From NCBI RefSeq assembly GCF_025685395.1, contig NZ_JAGSYA010000003.1, positions 806,001 through 870,000 of the forward strand: 64,000 bases of DNA, read 5' to 3'. A program made the translations under genes and the position numbers. Of this stretch, positions 3,631 to 58,432 are shown one piece after another; positions within the stretch are counted from its first letter, which is position 1, and every line of letters begins with the position of its first letter. The DNA is from Terriglobus tenax. Lineage in GTDB: Bacteria > Acidobacteriota > Terriglobia > Terriglobales > Acidobacteriaceae. The notes beneath the pieces are model-generated. The model had not been told where the DNA came from and did not search any database. It saw nothing but the letters and a program-made list of their open reading frames with translations.

Positions 3631-3647
3631 CTTTTGCCTTTTGCTTT

Positions 3648-3690
3648 GTCATCCAGAGCAAAGCGAAAGCCCTGCCTCTCTTCGCAGCAT
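3648..3690. repeat. GTCATCC-type interspersed repeat, degenerate copy
   Basis: The segment GTCATCCAGAGCAAAGCGAA followed by a CTGC-rich tail resembles the GTCATCC(T)GAGCGAAGCGAAGG element found in many Acidobacteria. Better copies lie at 9446 and inside dnaX (56895, 57147). It occupies the thrC to GH28 gap next to hairpin copy B. Confidence 0.5.
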
Positions 3691-3700
3691 GTAACCCTAA

Positions 3701-3737
3701 CCGAACCCGCTCTCGCAACCCCAGGGTGGGTTCGGTA
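3701..3737. repeat. Interspersed hairpin repeat, copy B
   Basis: A 9-bp perfect stem, ACCGAACCC (3701-3709) with GGGTTCGGT (3729-3737), encloses CTCGCAACCCCAGGGT, the same interior as copy A (CTCGCAACGCCAGGGT). It may also act as a terminator for thrC, although no T-run follows. Confidence 0.6.
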
Positions 3738-3761
3738 CCATAGCCCCACAGGAACCCACGG

Positions 3762-5072
3762 ATGCCCCACCAATACTCTCGCCGCACCTTTCTCTCGCTG
3801 ACGCTCTCCGCCTCCCTCGCGCACGCCGGAGCGCAGCTTCCCATCCTGCGTGGCAAGCGGGTATCCATCCTCGACCACGGCGCGAAGGCCGATGGCGCCA
3901 CCCTCAACACCCGCGCCATCCAGGCCACCATCGATAGCCTCGCCTCCACCGGCGGCGGCACCGTCGTCATACCGGCGGGCACCTTCATCAGCGGAGCTAT
4001 CTTCCTCAAGCGCGGAGTCCATCTCCACCTTGAGAAGGGAGCCGTCCTTCAGGCCTCCACCGATGTCGCCGCGAACTTCCCCGCGCAGCGCACCCGCATT
4101 GAAGGCCACTTCGAAGAGAAGTTCACCCCCGCCCTCATCAACGCCAAAAACTGCGACGGTCTGCGAATCACCGGCGAAGGCACCCTCGACGGCGCGGGCC
4201 GCCCCATCTGGGACCAGTTCTGGAAGATGCGCAACGCCGCGCCTGACCCGCACAACTTTCCCAACATCGGCCTGCCGCGCGCCCGCCTCGCCATCCTGGA
4301 GGAGTCGCGCAACATCACCGTCGAAGGCGTCACCTTCAAGGACTCGCAGTTCTGGAACCTCCATCTCTACAAGTGCGATGGTGTCACCGTTAAGAACGCC
4401 CGCTTCCAGGTGCCCGACGACTACAAGCAGGCGCCCAGCACCGACGGCATCGACCTCGACAGCTGCCGCAACGTCACCGTCGACGGCTGCTTCTTCTCCG
4501 TCACCGACGACTGCATCGCCGCCAAGGGCTCCAAAGGCCCCAACGCCGACAAGGACACCGCCAGCCCGCCCGTGGAGCACATCCGCGTCCGCAACTGCAC
4601 CTTCAAACGCGGCAACGGTATCGTCACCCTCGGCAGCGAAGCCACGCTTGTGCGCGACGTCCAAGTGGAGAACTGCAACGTCATCGGCGAGGTCAAAATC
4701 GCCGTCCTCAAGCTGCGCCCCGACACCCCGCAGCACTACGAAGACATCCACTTCCGCAACATCACCCTCAACGGCTCCCGCGCCCCCATGGTGCAGATCC
4801 AGCCCTGGTCGCAGTACTTTGACCTGAAGGGCAACACCCCGCCCAAATCCATCGTGCGCAACGTCACCATCACCGGAGTCAAAGGCCGCTTCGGTACCTT
4901 CGGCACCATCAAACCCAACCCAGGCCAGACGGAGATCGCGGACATCGTCTTCAAAGACATCAACGTCACCCTGCAGGACCCCAAGCTGAACACCGAGGGC
5001 GTCAAAGGTCTGAAGTTCGAAAACGTGATCATCAACGGGAAGAACATCACCTCAGCGGAATCGCTGGCATAA
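3762..5072 (+). CDS. Glycoside hydrolase family 28 (polygalacturonase-like), Tat-exported
   Basis: Protein of 436 residues with the right-handed beta-helix pattern of GH28 pectin-acting enzymes. A twin-arginine signal (SRRTFLSLT, RR at 7-8) followed by an AHA-type cleavage site suggests folded export. The pectate-lyase-3-like N-terminus (ILDHGAKADGATLNTRAIQ) is typical. Of the four GH28 signatures, the NTDG block is STDGIDLD (D228, D231) and the acid pair is intact (D249-D250). The GHG block reads GNG (284-286) and the RIK block reads VLKLR (315-319). Loss of the histidine suggests an altered substrate or mechanism, such as rhamnogalacturonan or a non-pectin glycan, rather than classical polygalacturonase. 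The start at the ATG before the Tat motif is clear. It is probably monocistronic between hairpin repeats. Confidence 0.85.
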   Translation: MPHQYSRRTFLSLTLSASLAHAGAQLPILRGKRVSILDHGAKADGATLNTRAIQATIDSLASTGGGTVVIPAGTFISGAIFLKRGVHLHLEKGAVLQASTDVAANFPAQRTRIEGHFEEKFTPALINAKNCDGLRITGEGTLDGAGRPIWDQFWKMRNAAPDPHNFPNIGLPRARLAILEESRNITVEGVTFKDSQFWNLHLYKCDGVTVKNARFQVPDDYKQAPSTDGIDLDSCRNVTVDGCFFSVTDDCIAAKGSKGPNADKDTASPPVEHIRVRNCTFKRGNGIVTLGSEATLVRDVQVENCNVIGEVKIAVLKLRPDTPQHYEDIHFRNITLNGSRAPMVQIQPWSQYFDLKGNTPPKSIVRNVTITGVKGRFGTFGTIKPNPGQTEIADIVFKDINVTLQDPKLNTEGVKGLKFENVIINGKNITSAESLA

Positions 5073-5080
5073 CCCATCAC

Positions 5081-5115
5081 CCGGGTCCCCATGTCCCGTT
5101 TCCGGGGCATGGGTG
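5081..5115. repeat. Interspersed hairpin repeat, copy C
   Basis: CCGGGTCCCCATG (5081-5093) pairs with CATGGG (5109-5114) across a CCC...GGGG inner stem, a divergent member of the GGGTGCCCCA family. The following gene could be read from GTG 5113 inside this repeat, but a better start is at 5182. Confidence 0.55.
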
Positions 5116-5181
5116 CTCGTGCGGAACTTTCCAGCAGCAGCGCTCGTAGCAACTCTCGCACCCGCCAGCCGTAGAGAGCCC

Positions 5182-5979
5182 ATGCCTGCTTTGTTACGAG
5201 CAACTCTGTTTCTATCGCTGCTGCCAGCCGGTATGCACGCAGCTCACGCGCAGGAAAACCCATCCGAGCCGCTGAAGAAGATGGCCGCCACCGCCGACCC
5301 TGACTTCGAGGTCGCCACCATCAAGCCCTCCGACCCCGCCGACCACAACCAGGGCTTCCGGCTGAAGGGCCGTCGGCTGCAGATAGAAGCCAATAACATG
5401 ACCGGCATTATCTGCTTCGCCTACTCCATCCAGAAGAGCCAGGTCATCAACGCCCCCAAATGGTTCGACGAACAGCGCTGGGACATCGAAGGCGTCCCCG
5501 ACGTGGAAGGTGCACCCAGCTGGCGTCAGTACCGCGGCATGCTGAAGAAGCTGCTCTCCAGCCGCTTCGGTATCCAGATGCACCAGGACAAACGCGAGCT
5601 CTCCGTCTACACCCTCACCCTTGCGAAGGACGGACCGAAGTTCAAGAAGAGCACCAGCGACCCCGACGCGCCCAGTGACCAGTCCGGCCACGGCATCGGC
5701 TCACAGCAGTATATGAAATTCACCAACGCCAGCATGACGGACTTCGCCCAGACCATGCAGCTGATGGTCGACAAACCTGTAGTCGACCAGACCAGCCTCT
5801 CAGGCCGCTTTGACTTTGAGCTGTTGTGGACGCCGGACATGCTCCGCCCCACGGAACCGAACCCGGCTCCGGCTCTCTTTACCGCGGTGCAGGAACAACT
5901 GGGGCTGAAACTGCAGGCGACTCGCACGCAGACCGATGTGCTGGTCATTGACACCGCAACCCCACCAACACAGAACTAA
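5182..5979 (+). CDS. TIGR03435 family protein (soil Acidobacteria family)
   Basis: Secreted protein of 265 residues belonging to the TIGR03435 family, which is expanded in Acidobacteria and has no assigned biochemical role. Visible landmarks are a signal peptide (residues 1-23, ending AAHA), the FEVATIKPSDP block, the AYSIQKSQVINAP segment, RFGIQMHQDKRELSVYTL, the hallmark VVDQTSLSGRFDFELLW, and the end FTAVQEQLGLKLQ...VLVIDTATPPTQN. ATG 5182 was preferred to the in-frame GTG at 5113 because 5113 lies in a repeat hairpin and the signal peptide begins at 5182. A paralogue lies at 11754-12554 on the other strand. Function is unknown. Confidence 0.85.
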   Translation: MPALLRATLFLSLLPAGMHAAHAQENPSEPLKKMAATADPDFEVATIKPSDPADHNQGFRLKGRRLQIEANNMTGIICFAYSIQKSQVINAPKWFDEQRWDIEGVPDVEGAPSWRQYRGMLKKLLSSRFGIQMHQDKRELSVYTLTLAKDGPKFKKSTSDPDAPSDQSGHGIGSQQYMKFTNASMTDFAQTMQLMVDKPVVDQTSLSGRFDFELLWTPDMLRPTEPNPAPALFTAVQEQLGLKLQATRTQTDVLVIDTATPPTQN

Positions 5980-5982
5980 AGC

Positions 5983-6022
5983 GGGTGCCCCATATCTGGC
6001 AGCCTCATCGCCAGATGTGGGA
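5983..6022. repeat. 40-bp hairpin repeat D, identical to the copy at 7294-7333
   Basis: It begins GGGTGCCCCATATCTGGC and ends GCCAGATGTGGGA. The arms CCCATATCTGGC (5989-6000) and GCCAGATGTGGG (6010-6021) pair over 12 bp with one mismatch. All 40 bases match the second copy in the same orientation. The pair brackets the DUF4272 gene. Confidence 0.85.
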
Positions 6023-6035
6023 CGAACCACCATCT

Positions 6036-7241
6036 CTATGTATCTGTCGGCGTATCCGCCCACAACCCGCTCTTTGAGCGCCCACAAAGCCAGTTGAAAG
6101 CCTTGTGCCGCTCCTGTGCGATGGAGGTCATTACGGCGAACTCATCCGAAGTAAGTTCACCATAGCTCTTTCCTAAAGCAGGGAAGTCTCCATTGATTGG
6201 CTGCCCAATATCGCCTTTATCCGCAGCTTTCGATGCCGTCATTGCGATGATCTGCGCAATCGTGAGACCACTGTACTGACCGTCAAGCTTTCCTTCTTCC
6301 TGAAGACGCCGAGTCCGCGCCCGCCAGTGCCATAATTCAGCAAGATTTCTCTGCTTCTCGATCTCGTCTTTGGGGCGGAGTTGCGCACGATTGACGGCCT
6401 CTTGAATCGAGGCTGCTTTGAACTCCTGTACAAGATCGCTGCCGGTCTCCTGATCATAGGGCGGTAACGATGGAATCATCTGCAGCGCCCACAGCAGGCA
6501 TGCAATCGATTCGGCCAGCCAGCTTGCGTCAATCCGTGCCTGATCGTTCTCTGATGAAAGGCCGCCCTGCAGAAACGCTCTCTCGCCTGCTTCCACATCA
6601 CGCCACAGGTCTGAGCTTTTGAGCTGTTCGACAATGGGCTGCGTGAATTCGCCGATATCTTTCTTGAACTGCTCGCTCTCTTCAGCACTCCATTGCGCCA
6701 TCATCTCCTGCAGAACATCCATCGGAGGAACGACGAGACCTGCGGCATAAATGGCCTTCAGAATAATGGCACGCTTCATCACCGCGCCTGCGTTTGGAGT
6801 TCCTTGTGAGAAGTAGGGCACATGAGCGTCATTTGACTGCGAAAGAATGTCACGAAGTAGAACTGCTGCACAGAAAACAGTTGCAGCGATGAGATAACCC
6901 CCAAGTGACAAATCCGCGAATTTTGGGAAGGCCTTTCTTATGGTGAAATCCCATGGATACTGAATCAAGGCAACCCCAATGCCGAGAGAAAGCGCCAGCA
7001 TTGCGCGAGGAGAATGGCTGGTTCGGCGGAGAAAAAACCTTCCCAGCAAAACAAGAAGCCCGGTTAGTCCGCCAATAATGAGACCGAACAGGACGCTCTC
7101 AAGGAACAGGCCAGCGAAGGCGGCATTCAAATGGCTCATTTGCTCCTGATCAACATCGTGGAGCAAATAGACAGAGATCGCAGCAATCAGTAGAGCTGTG
7201 CCCGAAAGTCCTGAGATGAGCAAGAATATGGAGCGTCGCAT
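6036..7241 (-). CDS. Four-TM membrane protein with C-terminal DUF4272-like domain
   Basis: Protein of 401 residues. Four hydrophobic segments lie at about 5-27, 43-70, 78-95 and 113-131. A soluble region follows (150-401) resembling DUF4272, with its landmarks AIILKAIYAAG, WLAESIACLLWAL (241-253), LPPYD and LWHWRARTRRLQEEG (303-317). The frame runs further upstream to 7361, but that extension is just translation of repeat copy E (KFPHLAMRLPDMGHP), so ATG 7241 before the first TM segment is the likely start. DUF4272 has no established activity. The gene stands alone, is less GC-rich than its neighbours, and lies between two identical hairpin repeats, which suggests it arrived as a unit. Confidence 0.75.
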   Translation of the reverse strand: MRRSIFLLISGLSGTALLIAAISVYLLHDVDQEQMSHLNAAFAGLFLESVLFGLIIGGLTGLLVLLGRFFLRRTSHSPRAMLALSLGIGVALIQYPWDFTIRKAFPKFADLSLGGYLIAATVFCAAVLLRDILSQSNDAHVPYFSQGTPNAGAVMKRAIILKAIYAAGLVVPPMDVLQEMMAQWSAEESEQFKKDIGEFTQPIVEQLKSSDLWRDVEAGERAFLQGGLSSENDQARIDASWLAESIACLLWALQMIPSLPPYDQETGSDLVQEFKAASIQEAVNRAQLRPKDEIEKQRNLAELWHWRARTRRLQEEGKLDGQYSGLTIAQIIAMTASKAADKGDIGQPINGDFPALGKSYGELTSDEFAVMTSIAQERHKAFNWLCGRSKSGLWADTPTDT

Positions 7242-7293
7242 GGGTGAAGAGGAAGTATAGCCGACACAAAAATGACACGGTGTTGAAGACACT

Positions 7294-7333
7294 GGGTGCC
7301 CCATATCTGGCAGCCTCATCGCCAGATGTGGGA
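7294..7333. repeat. 40-bp hairpin repeat E, identical to the copy at 5983-6022
   Basis: Same 40 bases and orientation as copy D, 1311 bases downstream on the + strand. It lies upstream of the DUF4272 gene's start. Confidence 0.85.
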
Positions 7334-7355
7334 ATTTCCATAGAACATCCTGCAA

Positions 7356-7391
7356 ACCCACATCTCAGAATCGAGATATAGGGCACACCGG
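7356..7391. repeat. Interspersed hairpin repeat F, inverted orientation
   Basis: Read on the minus strand it has the family frame (GTGCCCTATATCTC, loop, GAGATGTGGG). Arms are CCCACATCTC (7358-7367) and GAGATATAGGG (7373-7383). It is followed by a second small stem, ACACCGG (7385-7391) with CCGGTGT (7403-7409), just beyond the stop of the ABC exporter gene, where it could help end that transcript. Confidence 0.6.
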
Positions 7392-7410
7392 TTCATGGTG
7401 AGCCGGTGTT

Positions 7411-36804: not shown

Positions 36805-37347
36805 TTAGTACTCCGTCTCCCGGCGGATGCGCTCGCGCACCGCGTCCTGTTTTGCCTGCTCCCCGGCGGGCAGCTCCACTACGATTCCTTCCGCGGTCGT
36901 GAGCGTGTTGTTGCGGCGGCGCACCCAGGCGCGGACGATCAGCGCCGTGCCAACGGTGGCCAGCAGGAAGACCACGACCGGCATGACCCAGGCCACGGTG
37001 TCGAAGCCGCCGCGGATGGGCGCGGCCAGTACGGTGGGGCCATACTTTGACGCGAACCAGTTGTAGATGGGCGTATCCCCGTCACCGCTGGCAAGCCGCG
37101 TGCGCAACTCGCCGATCATGCGGTCGGAGTCCGGACAGCCGACGTGGTTGCACTCCAGCAGAATCTGCCCGCAGCCGCAGACGCACATCATGCCGTGGCC
37201 GATCTTGTTGAAGCGTGTTCCAGTGTCGTCGGCGGCCATCAGAAGAATCATGCCGAAGAGGACAACGCCAAGCTGGAAATAGCGATGACTCAACCCACGT
37301 CTCAAAGACGAGACATGGGGTACCCGGATCTGTGACAGAATGCGCAT
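36805..37347 (-). CDS. ccmH: Cytochrome c-type biogenesis protein CcmH/NrfF
   Basis: Protein of 180 residues of the CcmH/Ccl2 family, which reduces apocytochrome cysteines for heme attachment. The redox motif region reads CVCGCGQILLECNHVGCPDS, richer in Cys than the classic LRCxxC. It is flanked by an N-terminal hydrophobic segment (FQLGVVLFGMILLMA) and a second helix (VAWVMPVVVFLLATVGTALIV). Its ATG overlaps the ccmF TAA by one base. Residues about 7-18 (IRVPHVSSLRRG) are encoded by an interspersed hairpin repeat, so the N-terminus is lengthened or altered by it. It is in operon with ccmF and the CcmI-like gene. Confidence 0.85.
   Translation of the reverse strand: MRILSQIRVPHVSSLRRGLSHRYFQLGVVLFGMILLMAADDTGTRFNKIGHGMMCVCGCGQILLECNHVGCPDSDRMIGELRTRLASGDGDTPIYNWFASKYGPTVLAAPIRGGFDTVAWVMPVVVFLLATVGTALIVRAWVRRRNNTLTTAEGIVVELPAGEQAKQDAVRERIRRETEY
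37292..37327. repeat. Interspersed hairpin repeat G, inside the ccmH coding sequence
   Basis: Arms CCCACGTCTC (37294-37303) and GAGACATGGG (37310-37319) pair with one mismatch, followed by GGTACCCGG. On the minus strand the GGGTACCCCA frame of the family is clear. It lies in frame at codons about 7-18 of ccmH. Confidence 0.7.
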
Positions 37348-56371: not shown

Positions 56372-58432
56372 CTATTTTTCCCGCAGGTCAATCACGGTGC
56401 GGACCTCGGCGTTGAACAGCTTCTGCGCCTGCTGCACGATGGGATGCTCCATGGCTGCGGCCTTGATGGAGCCGGCGGCAGCTGGACGGTCTTTCTTTGC
56501 GGCAGCGTTGGCGGCTGAGCCGGGAAGGAGGATGAGCTTCAGGTCGCCGGCGCCGTTCAGCCGCAGCGAGGTCTTGATGATCTTCTCGGCTTCGGCGTTG
56601 ATCAGCAGCTTCAGCATGCCGGCCGAGAGCGTGGTCTGGATGCGGAGCTCGTTGCCTTCGATGCTGAAGGTGAACTCGTCAAGCTGTTCGGCGGCAGAGC
56701 TGTGGCCCTTGGAGGCGGAGAGCTCATTGACGATGGCGTTTTGCAGGGCGGCAACATCGTAGGAGCCGGTTGGCTGGATGGCTGGTTGGCTGGATGGCTC
56801 GTCTTCAGAAACCAGGGTTTCAGTGGCGGAGCTGTCTACCCCTTGCTGCGCAAGGGATGGGCCACCCGGGGTCGTGGCTGTTTCAGGAGCAGGAGGTCCT
56901 TCGCTGTCGCTCAGGATGACAGGAGATATTTCAGTGGCGGGCTCTCCCACATCTGCTTTTGCCAGATATGGGGCACCCGGTTCCTTGACTGGCAGCACCG
57001 GTTCCGGGGCCAGGGCCAGGTTGCCAGCGGTCTGGTCAATGGGGATGACGTTGTTCAGCGTCGGCCGGGTGGACATCTCCGTCTTACGAGACCGATCGGT
57101 CTCAAAGGGGGAGAAGGCCGGCTTGGCCGGGGCGGCTGGCGATGCCGATCCCTCCACTCCGCTGCGCTCCGGTCGGGATGACAGGCCCGGAGTGGGGCGC
57201 GCGGGAGGTGGCGTGGGGCGTGGGGATGCAGGGGCAACACCCGGCTTTGCGGCGCTGGTCGGAAGGGCGCTGAGCAGGTCTTCGACCGGGAGCAGGCGCT
57301 GCAGGTGGACCAGTTTCAGAAGGCCCAATTCGAGATGGAAACGCGGTTCCTGACGGAAGCCGAGGTCGTCAAATGTCCGAAGTATAACTTGAAGAAATCT
57401 CGTTAACTCTTCTTCTGAAAAGAGTTGTGCGCTGCGAGCAGCCCGTTTGCGTTCGTCCACGCTGATCTGCAGGAGGTCGGTCTGGTTGTTCTCTTCGGTC
57501 AGGTTGGCGATCTTGGCGACGACGCAGTTGCGCAGGTAGCGGACGAACTGGCGGGAGATCTGCGTGGGCGAGTTTCCGGCGTCCAAAAGGCGGGCAGCGG
57601 TCTGGATGACCACGGCTGACTGGTTGGCACTGACGGCTTCAAGGATCTCTTCAAAGACGGTGTTGGGTACCGAGCCCATCAGGTCGCGGATCTGGGAGCC
57701 GTCGAGGACGGGCTTGCCGTCGGCGATCGGGGCGGAGGCGATGGCCTGGTCCATGATGGACAGGGCGTCGCGCATGGAGCCGTCGCCGGCCTCGGCCAGC
57801 AGGGCAAGCGCGGTGTCATCGGCAATGACACCTTCGTGCTGGGCGATGCCGCGCAGCTCGGCCAGGATGTCGTCATGCTTCACGGCGTGGAAGCTGAAAT
57901 GCTGGCAGCGGGAGCGGATGGTCTGCGGGATGTTCTCCGGCTCGGTGGTCGCCATCATGAAGACGATGTGGTCAGGTGGCTCCTCCAGCGTCTTGAGAAG
58001 GGCATTGAAGGCGGCATCGGTGATCTGGTGCGCCTCATCGAGGATGTAGATCTTGAACTTGTCGCGGGCCGGGCGGTAGCGGGCGGCGTCGCGCAGCTCG
58101 CGGATCTCGTCGATGCCGCGGTTGGTAGCCGCGTCGATTTCGATGACATCGACGGCGTTACCCTGGCGGATTTCGATGCAGGAGTCGCATTGCAGGCAGG
58201 GCTCGGCGGTGGGCCGTTCGGCGGAGCCGATGGTGTTACGGCAGTTCAGCGCGGAGGCCAGGATGCGGGCGATGGTCGTCTTCCCGATGCCGCGATGGCC
58301 CGAGAAGATGTAGCCGTGGGCGATGCGCTGCTGCTCGAGCGCATTGATCAGCGTCCGGGTGACGTGGTCCTGTCCGGCCACGTCGGCAAAGCGGAGAGGG
58401 CGATACTTTCGGGCGAGAACCTGGTAGGCCAT
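56372..58432 (-). CDS. dnaX: DNA polymerase III subunit gamma/tau, linker carrying in-frame repeats
   Basis: Clamp-loader ATPase of 686 residues. Walker A GHRGIGKTT (45-53), zinc-binding cysteines (C64, C79, C82, C85), DEAH box (132-135) and the SRC arginine segment (SRCQHFSF) are intact, then the lid and collar domains to about 385. The region about 390-545 is a low-complexity linker rich in Pro, Ser, Ala and Glu; it contains at least four interspersed repeats in frame at about residues 416-429, 484-496, 504-513 and 522-532. Beyond it comes the tau C-terminal domain. The ATG is certain from MAYQVLARKYRPLRF. Confidence 0.95.
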   Translation of the reverse strand: MAYQVLARKYRPLRFADVAGQDHVTRTLINALEQQRIAHGYIFSGHRGIGKTTIARILASALNCRNTIGSAERPTAEPCLQCDSCIEIRQGNAVDVIEIDAATNRGIDEIRELRDAARYRPARDKFKIYILDEAHQITDAAFNALLKTLEEPPDHIVFMMATTEPENIPQTIRSRCQHFSFHAVKHDDILAELRGIAQHEGVIADDTALALLAEAGDGSMRDALSIMDQAIASAPIADGKPVLDGSQIRDLMGSVPNTVFEEILEAVSANQSAVVIQTAARLLDAGNSPTQISRQFVRYLRNCVVAKIANLTEENNQTDLLQISVDERKRAARSAQLFSEEELTRFLQVILRTFDDLGFRQEPRFHLELGLLKLVHLQRLLPVEDLLSALPTSAAKPGVAPASPRPTPPPARPTPGLSSRPERSGVEGSASPAAPAKPAFSPFETDRSRKTEMSTRPTLNNVIPIDQTAGNLALAPEPVLPVKEPGAPYLAKADVGEPATEISPVILSDSEGPPAPETATTPGGPSLAQQGVDSSATETLVSEDEPSSQPAIQPTGSYDVAALQNAIVNELSASKGHSSAAEQLDEFTFSIEGNELRIQTTLSAGMLKLLINAEAEKIIKTSLRLNGAGDLKLILLPGSAANAAAKKDRPAAAGSIKAAAMEHPIVQQAQKLFNAEVRTVIDLREK
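56768..56799. repeat. 16-bp tandem repeat inside dnaX
   Basis: GGTTGGCTGGATGGCT occurs twice in perfect tandem (56768-56783 and 56784-56799). It codes on the minus strand for part of the dnaX linker (SSQPAIQPTG). Similar GGTTGGATGG words lie at 56338-56370 between dnaX and ybaB. Confidence 0.75.
56837..56869. repeat. Hairpin repeat within dnaX, type CCCTTGC/GCAAGGG
   Basis: Arms CCCTTGC (56840-56846) and GCAAGGG (56850-56856), followed by ATGGGCCACCCGG. On the coding strand this gives GGPSLAQQGV of the DnaX linker. A TTTCAGTGGCGG segment precedes it and recurs 111 bases away before the next copy. Confidence 0.65.
56895..56922. repeat. GTCATCC-type repeat within dnaX
   Basis: The minus strand reads CTGTCATCCTGAGCGACAGC then GAAGGACC, a near-exact member of the GTCATCCTGAGCGAAGCGAAGG element. 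It codes for PVILSDSEGP in the linker. Confidence 0.75.
56946..56981. repeat. GGGTGCCCCA hairpin repeat within dnaX
   Basis: Arms CCCACATCTG (56946-56955) and CAGATATGGG (56963-56972), then GCACCCGG. Read in the coding direction it is GGGTGCCCCATATCTGGC, the same 18 bases as copies D and E. It codes for GAPYLAKADVGE. Confidence 0.85.
57147..57185. repeat. GTCATCCCG-type repeat within dnaX
   Basis: The minus strand reads GTCATCCCGACCGGAGCGCA then GCGGAGTGGAGGGATC, matching the intergenic copy at 9446-9490. It codes for LSSRPERSGVEGSA in the linker. Confidence 0.8.

Follow-up and report, generated by a model that had tools for sequence, protein, structure and literature searches.

REP elements are short repeats that form hairpins as single strands and are mobilised by RAYT/TnpA-REP transposases of the Y1/HUH type (REPtrons; PMC2817692, PMC8266576, PMC6006769), and around RAYT genes new REPs form preferentially close to existing copies (Nunvar 2010; PMC2817692). 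Two large described superfamilies are marked by the end tags GTAG and CGTC, which are no requirement for REP status (PMC3733652). REPs also occur as inverted doublets with a short spacer, known as REPINs or BIME-1 (Bertels and Rainey 2011; PMC3116915), and in E. coli, 24% of the sequenced cases of rearrangement junctions lie at REPs (PMC3161906). Another described layout, one gene between identical short repeats, is that of the composite transposon or MITE-bounded passenger module.

The window analysed here, a stretch of 64,000 nucleotides from Terriglobus tenax, contains a locus that resembles such a module and was read as one in the initial annotation. Two direct repeats on the + strand, D (5983-6022; 45.6 bits with flank) and E (7294-7333; 50.4 bits), enclose a single ORF on the − strand (6036-7241), which encodes a 401-aa protein with a DUF4272 domain. 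The reported identity of D and E over 40 bases was confirmed (40/40 nt); the two lie 1311 bases apart, and the identity ends with the repeat at either side. Within three mismatches, the 40-mer occurs in the 4.36-Mb genome at D and E alone, the nearest other copies being C4:2477783 (95%) and C3:579053 (88%). D starts 4 nt after the stop codon of a TIGR03435/DUF3738 family gene (5113-5979, +) and consists of the head GGGTGCC, the stem CCCATATCTGGC/GCCAGATGTGGG and the loop AGCCTCATC. A third, inverted member, which the initial annotation placed just beyond E, is indeed present (7356-7390, − strand, 41.9 bits), 21 nt from the stop codon of an ABC transporter gene, but it belongs to another stem subtype (TATATCTCGATTCTGAGATGTGGG) and is about 68% similar to D/E. 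The analysis below points to usual REP behaviour next to a gene that was recently gained, with no cross-species sign that the REPs carried the gene between them.

The claim that D and E are non-autonomous hairpin repeats was borne out by the fold and its conservation. The D/E hairpin has a 12-bp stem and is bettered by only 1 of 200 shuffled sequences, with folding energies of −22.1 kcal/mol as RNA (z = −3.4) and −10.8 kcal/mol as DNA (z = −2.9). When 18 genome copies were aligned with the hairpin imposed, 96.7% of the stem cells were paired, and two-sided stem changes were found in 34 cells vs. 12 in shuffles, a signal that was lost when the partners were slid. A covariance model made from these 18 copies gave 127 raw matches in the genome and 98 at E 0.01 in a stricter run; some raw matches hit a palindrome a second time, on its other strand, and 94 distinct places were taken for analysis, the family size in T. 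tenax being about 95 copies. The head GGGTGCCCCA and the tail GTGGG are common to all copies, which differ in their stem sequence, and the family consensus consists of the fixed head GGGTGCCCC, the covarying 12-bp stem and the tail GTGGGA. REPs as a class lie mainly outside genes; here, copies outside the crude ORF calls, which overpredict, number 63 of 94, and positions after stop codons are common; some REPs are truly intragenic, e.g., the two in frame in metG described below. Across the genus, the copy number ranges from 5 to 144 per genome, with 98-144 copies in each of the richest (T. tenax itself, i.e., G000, and G002, G007, G009, G012, G013 and G016), and the family is rare or absent outside the taxonomic family of the window. 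Within the window, members that the initial annotation did not list are found 5′ of a thrS-like gene (2388-2421, +, 29.0 bits), in the spacer between a GH28-type gene and the TIGR03435 gene (5081-5114, +, 24.3 bits, diverged), and at 37293-37327, 56834-56869 and 56945-56980.

A link to a transposase was found in a relative, G010, whose contig C81 carries a RAYT gene of 147 aa (NCBIfam NF047646, E = 1.4e-31, 109 bits) with three family REPs directly upstream, within about 275 nt. The hairpin, the covariation, the spread over the genus and this RAYT gene with its upstream members identify D and E as REP elements of a common genus-wide, RAYT-linked family. With described REP/RAYT systems (PMC2817692, PMC8266576, PMC6006769), the family shares an imperfect palindrome of 34-42 nt, a number of about 95 copies, a covarying stem and family members beside a RAYT gene, as well as a CT just 5′ of the element, which directly precedes E and about half of the family copies and marks the place where cleavage is reported to occur in E. 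coli and S. maltophilia. It differs from them in its head, GGGTGCCCC in the consensus, which is neither the GTAG nor the CGTC tag, and in that no RAYT is detectable in T. tenax, i.e., no match to PF01797 at E 0.001, a search that does not extend to divergent class 3 enzymes. The REPs of this genome thus look like remnants of a lost enzyme, or rely on an enzyme too diverged to detect. E and the REP at 7356-7390 form an inverted doublet with a short spacer like a REPIN or BIME-1, while D is a singlet, and the same two subtypes are paired again as a doublet at C3:579051/579121; inverted doublets 52-70 bp apart number four among the 94 copies. In contrast to REPINs, linked REPs here mostly share one orientation (40 direct and 8 inverted pairs at distances below 5 kb), and the doublet members are of different stem subtypes.

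The enclosed gene was probably acquired recently, is low in GC and is specific to this species. Its description as a less GC-rich membrane gene agrees with a GC content of 52.8% (GC3 55.7%) vs. 60.6-63.8% (GC3 76-87%) in its neighbours, and with a product whose N-terminal half is hydrophobic and whose C-terminal residues 153-316 match Pfam DUF4272 (E = 4.6e-16). No full-length relative was found among 18 other genomes of the same genus or 396 genomes of the phylum, the gene matched neither a defence family nor a known NCBIfam family, and none of the papers in the collection searched names DUF4272. Partial relatives do exist: residues 1-150 match a stand-alone 144-aa ORF beside hscB in G018 (48%; L087:4548-4982), and residues 143-401 correspond to a separate DUF4272 protein of 265 aa (43%; L088:3367-4164), so that the gene in the window joins two parts that occur apart. 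Neither relative is bracketed by REPs, and a DUF4272 gene between such repeats was found at no other site or genome.

The gene belongs to a three-gene block of 3.8 kb (3631-7410) that runs from the thrS-like stop to the ABC stop and also contains the GH28-type gene (3762-5072, +; best NCBIfam model rhamnogalacturonidase, below the cut-off) and the TIGR03435/DUF3738 gene. In G002, G009, G013 and G016, where the ABC transporter is about 90% identical, the thrS-like and ABC genes stand tail to tail with a gap of about 10-14 nt, and all three genes and any REP are absent from this site; in more distant genus members, the neighbourhood is not conserved. Relatives of the GH28 gene have 65-67% identity and are restricted, within the family sample, to two genera other than this one, and relatives of the DUF4272 gene are likewise rare in the genus and family, which, in a comparison of one genome per species, favours, rather than proves, a gain of the block in this genome over its loss elsewhere. 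A GH28-neighbour locus with a single REP was considered and rejected, as the loci in relatives are from other genera only and have no REP. The initial annotation proposed to look for an empty site with a single repeat, which would support insertion or deletion through the repeats; instead, four relatives lack the whole block together with all REPs, so that the segment that changed is not delimited by the REPs. The locus shares with a composite transposon or MITE-bounded module one gene between identical short repeats, but it differs in having no one-repeat empty site, no target duplication at the ends and no repeated mobilisation of the same gene.

The identity of D and E had been taken as a sign of recent copying or recombination, and this idea holds up genome-wide, as near REPs are unusually alike, pointing to local copying or homogenisation. 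Among the 48 pairs less than 5 kb apart, three are identical vs. 0.2 expected and seven are at least 95% alike vs. 0.66 expected (permutation, p about 0.002 or less). The three identical pairs, all direct, are D/E, a pair around greB (C4:2417118/2417913) and a pair in metG (C4:2727284/2727530). The metG pair, 246 bp apart, lies in frame within a 737-aa methionyl-tRNA synthetase (C4:2727284-2727569; L192:1206-3419), where each REP adds GAPSTPQSGVGG to the protein, which therefore carries it twice. The metG genes of relatives have no REPs, and that of T. tenax exceeds theirs by 45 and 51 nt at the two sites, the insertion points being approximate because the loops vary. This pair carries no gene, showing that identical direct REP pairs form without cargo; together with the empty site in relatives, it leaves the view of the repeats as the ends of a passenger module unsupported. 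At the same metG loop, two other genus members (L208 and L214) have different inserts. A less similar pair (94%, 599 bp apart; C4:2737447 and C4:2738046, L192) is colinear with G002 and falls within coding sequence by crude calls. Tandem gene duplication was rejected as the origin of the identical pairs, since the flanks of D/E, greB and metG are non-homologous beyond a few bases. In 800 kb of G002, the picture differs: most near pairs are inverted, and apart from one pair at 97% and one at 94% they are not unduly alike, so that direct copying over short distances may belong to this genome and not to the REP family as such.

The explanation that best accommodates these data, with a probability of roughly 0.72, is that the gene was acquired on its own and that, next to it, a REP gave rise to a second copy about 1.3 kb away on the same strand. 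One of D and E would have been copied, or the two would have been homogenised, either while a RAYT, undetectable today, was still present or by recombination, and the DUF4272 gene would have been gained separately, with or into the three-gene accessory block between the thrS and ABC genes. The bracketing of the gene would follow from the habit of REPs to settle in spacers just 3′ of stop codons, as every spacer of the block bears a REP. The copying agent (presumably a RAYT), the older of the two copies and the order of events are parts of a reconstruction. The restriction of the 40-mer subtype to D and E would also fit a duplication specific to this unit and counts against local copying.

The alternative closest to the initial annotation is that a unit of REP plus DUF4272 gene, imported as a circle or in linear form, recombined with a lone REP after the TIGR03435 gene to give REP-gene-REP, an arrangement from which recombination of the 40-bp repeats with each other could remove the gene again. 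Such a capture fits the exact direct repeats around one atypical gene, and with the DUF4272 gene taken out, D/E would reduce to a single REP in the canonical position, 4 nt past the TIGR03435 stop, next to the inverted REP that follows the ABC gene. The search for other genes between identical copies, which the initial annotation had proposed, did yield one: greB (L184:4595-5191) is bracketed by identical direct REPs (C4:2417118-2417946) and adjoins hemB in T. tenax, while its neighbourhood differs between G002/G013, G009 and T. tenax, with no REPs at greB in those relatives. REPs of this family might then serve as landing or exchange points for single genes: by recombination between its own REP and a resident one, a gene would come to lie between two identical direct copies, as would be the case for both DUF4272 and greB in this genome. 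This generalisation is as doubtful as the capture itself. However, the empty site of relatives lacks the entire 3.8-kb block and REPs, cargo-free identical pairs are known from metG and also from an intergenic cluster (C4:2029285-2029564), and none of the 12 REP sites colinear with G002 on both flanks has gained a gene, the spacer excess in T. tenax being at most about 250 bp. In addition, L088, the sole relative of the DUF4272 gene with a nearby REP, has a single REP, which is of another subtype and follows the stop codon of the upstream gene. Capture is thus unlikely, and retains some weight because of the greB layout, the canonical single-REP position that remains without the DUF4272 gene, and the role of REPs as known rearrangement junctions in E. 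coli (PMC3161906).

Somewhat less probable still is that two REPs of one subtype were inserted independently, one as a singlet behind the TIGR03435 gene and one as part of a REPIN (E plus 7356-7390) behind the ABC gene, and are identical owing to a common recent source; the recurrence of the doublet at C3:579051/579121 and the frequency of REPs behind stop codons agree with this, but the subtype has just two copies in the genome, 1.3 kb apart, and the similarity of near pairs significantly exceeds expectation. That the hairpins are held identical by an RNA-level role, i.e., 3′ end protection or termination for convergent genes, is very improbable in spite of the strong RNA fold, the position of D between convergent genes and the hairpin near the ABC stop, since E sits on the 5′ side of the DUF4272 gene and stems differ freely among copies with pairing kept, so that an RNA function would need no sequence identity.

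Local copying of REPs beside an acquired gene most likely accounts for what is tempting to read as a gene cassette, and it calls for caution in REP-rich genomes, where identical direct repeats around a single gene are to be expected from local REP copying. In addition, an acidobacterial lineage is found to have a RAYT-linked REP family with the head GGGTGCC that spans the genus, and the paired in-frame REPs of the essential gene metG offer datable, cargo-free insertion sites. Should REP-mediated capture be true for DUF4272 or greB, it would provide a simple route to the gain and loss of single genes.

Several further observations concern the family at large. Contig L088 (PMQB01000056.1), labelled Bryobacterales, has a REP of a family otherwise found mainly in the window's own family, and its bin assignment may be wrong. 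On C1 of G002, some REPs have the loop swapped for a second hairpin (CCAACGAAC...GTTCGTTGGGG), i.e., a repeat nested within a REP, as at 5728071, 5802351, 5969410, 6317524 and 6373575. In T. tenax, the orientation of a REP predicts the sign of the local GC skew, the head being on the C-rich strand in 85 of 94 copies and 61 of 66 clusters; the link is seen genome-wide and, within the window, at 0-8 kb and 56-64 kb. Gene orientation was rejected as the driver of REP orientation, as it showed a weak trend only, with crude gene calls. In G002, the link is weak (24/43). The median |skew| is 0.107 at REP sites vs. 0.038 in 20 chosen REP-free stretches of 20 kb, and the thrS-like gene has a skew of −0.153 in T. 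tenax vs. +0.04 to +0.06 in three relatives.
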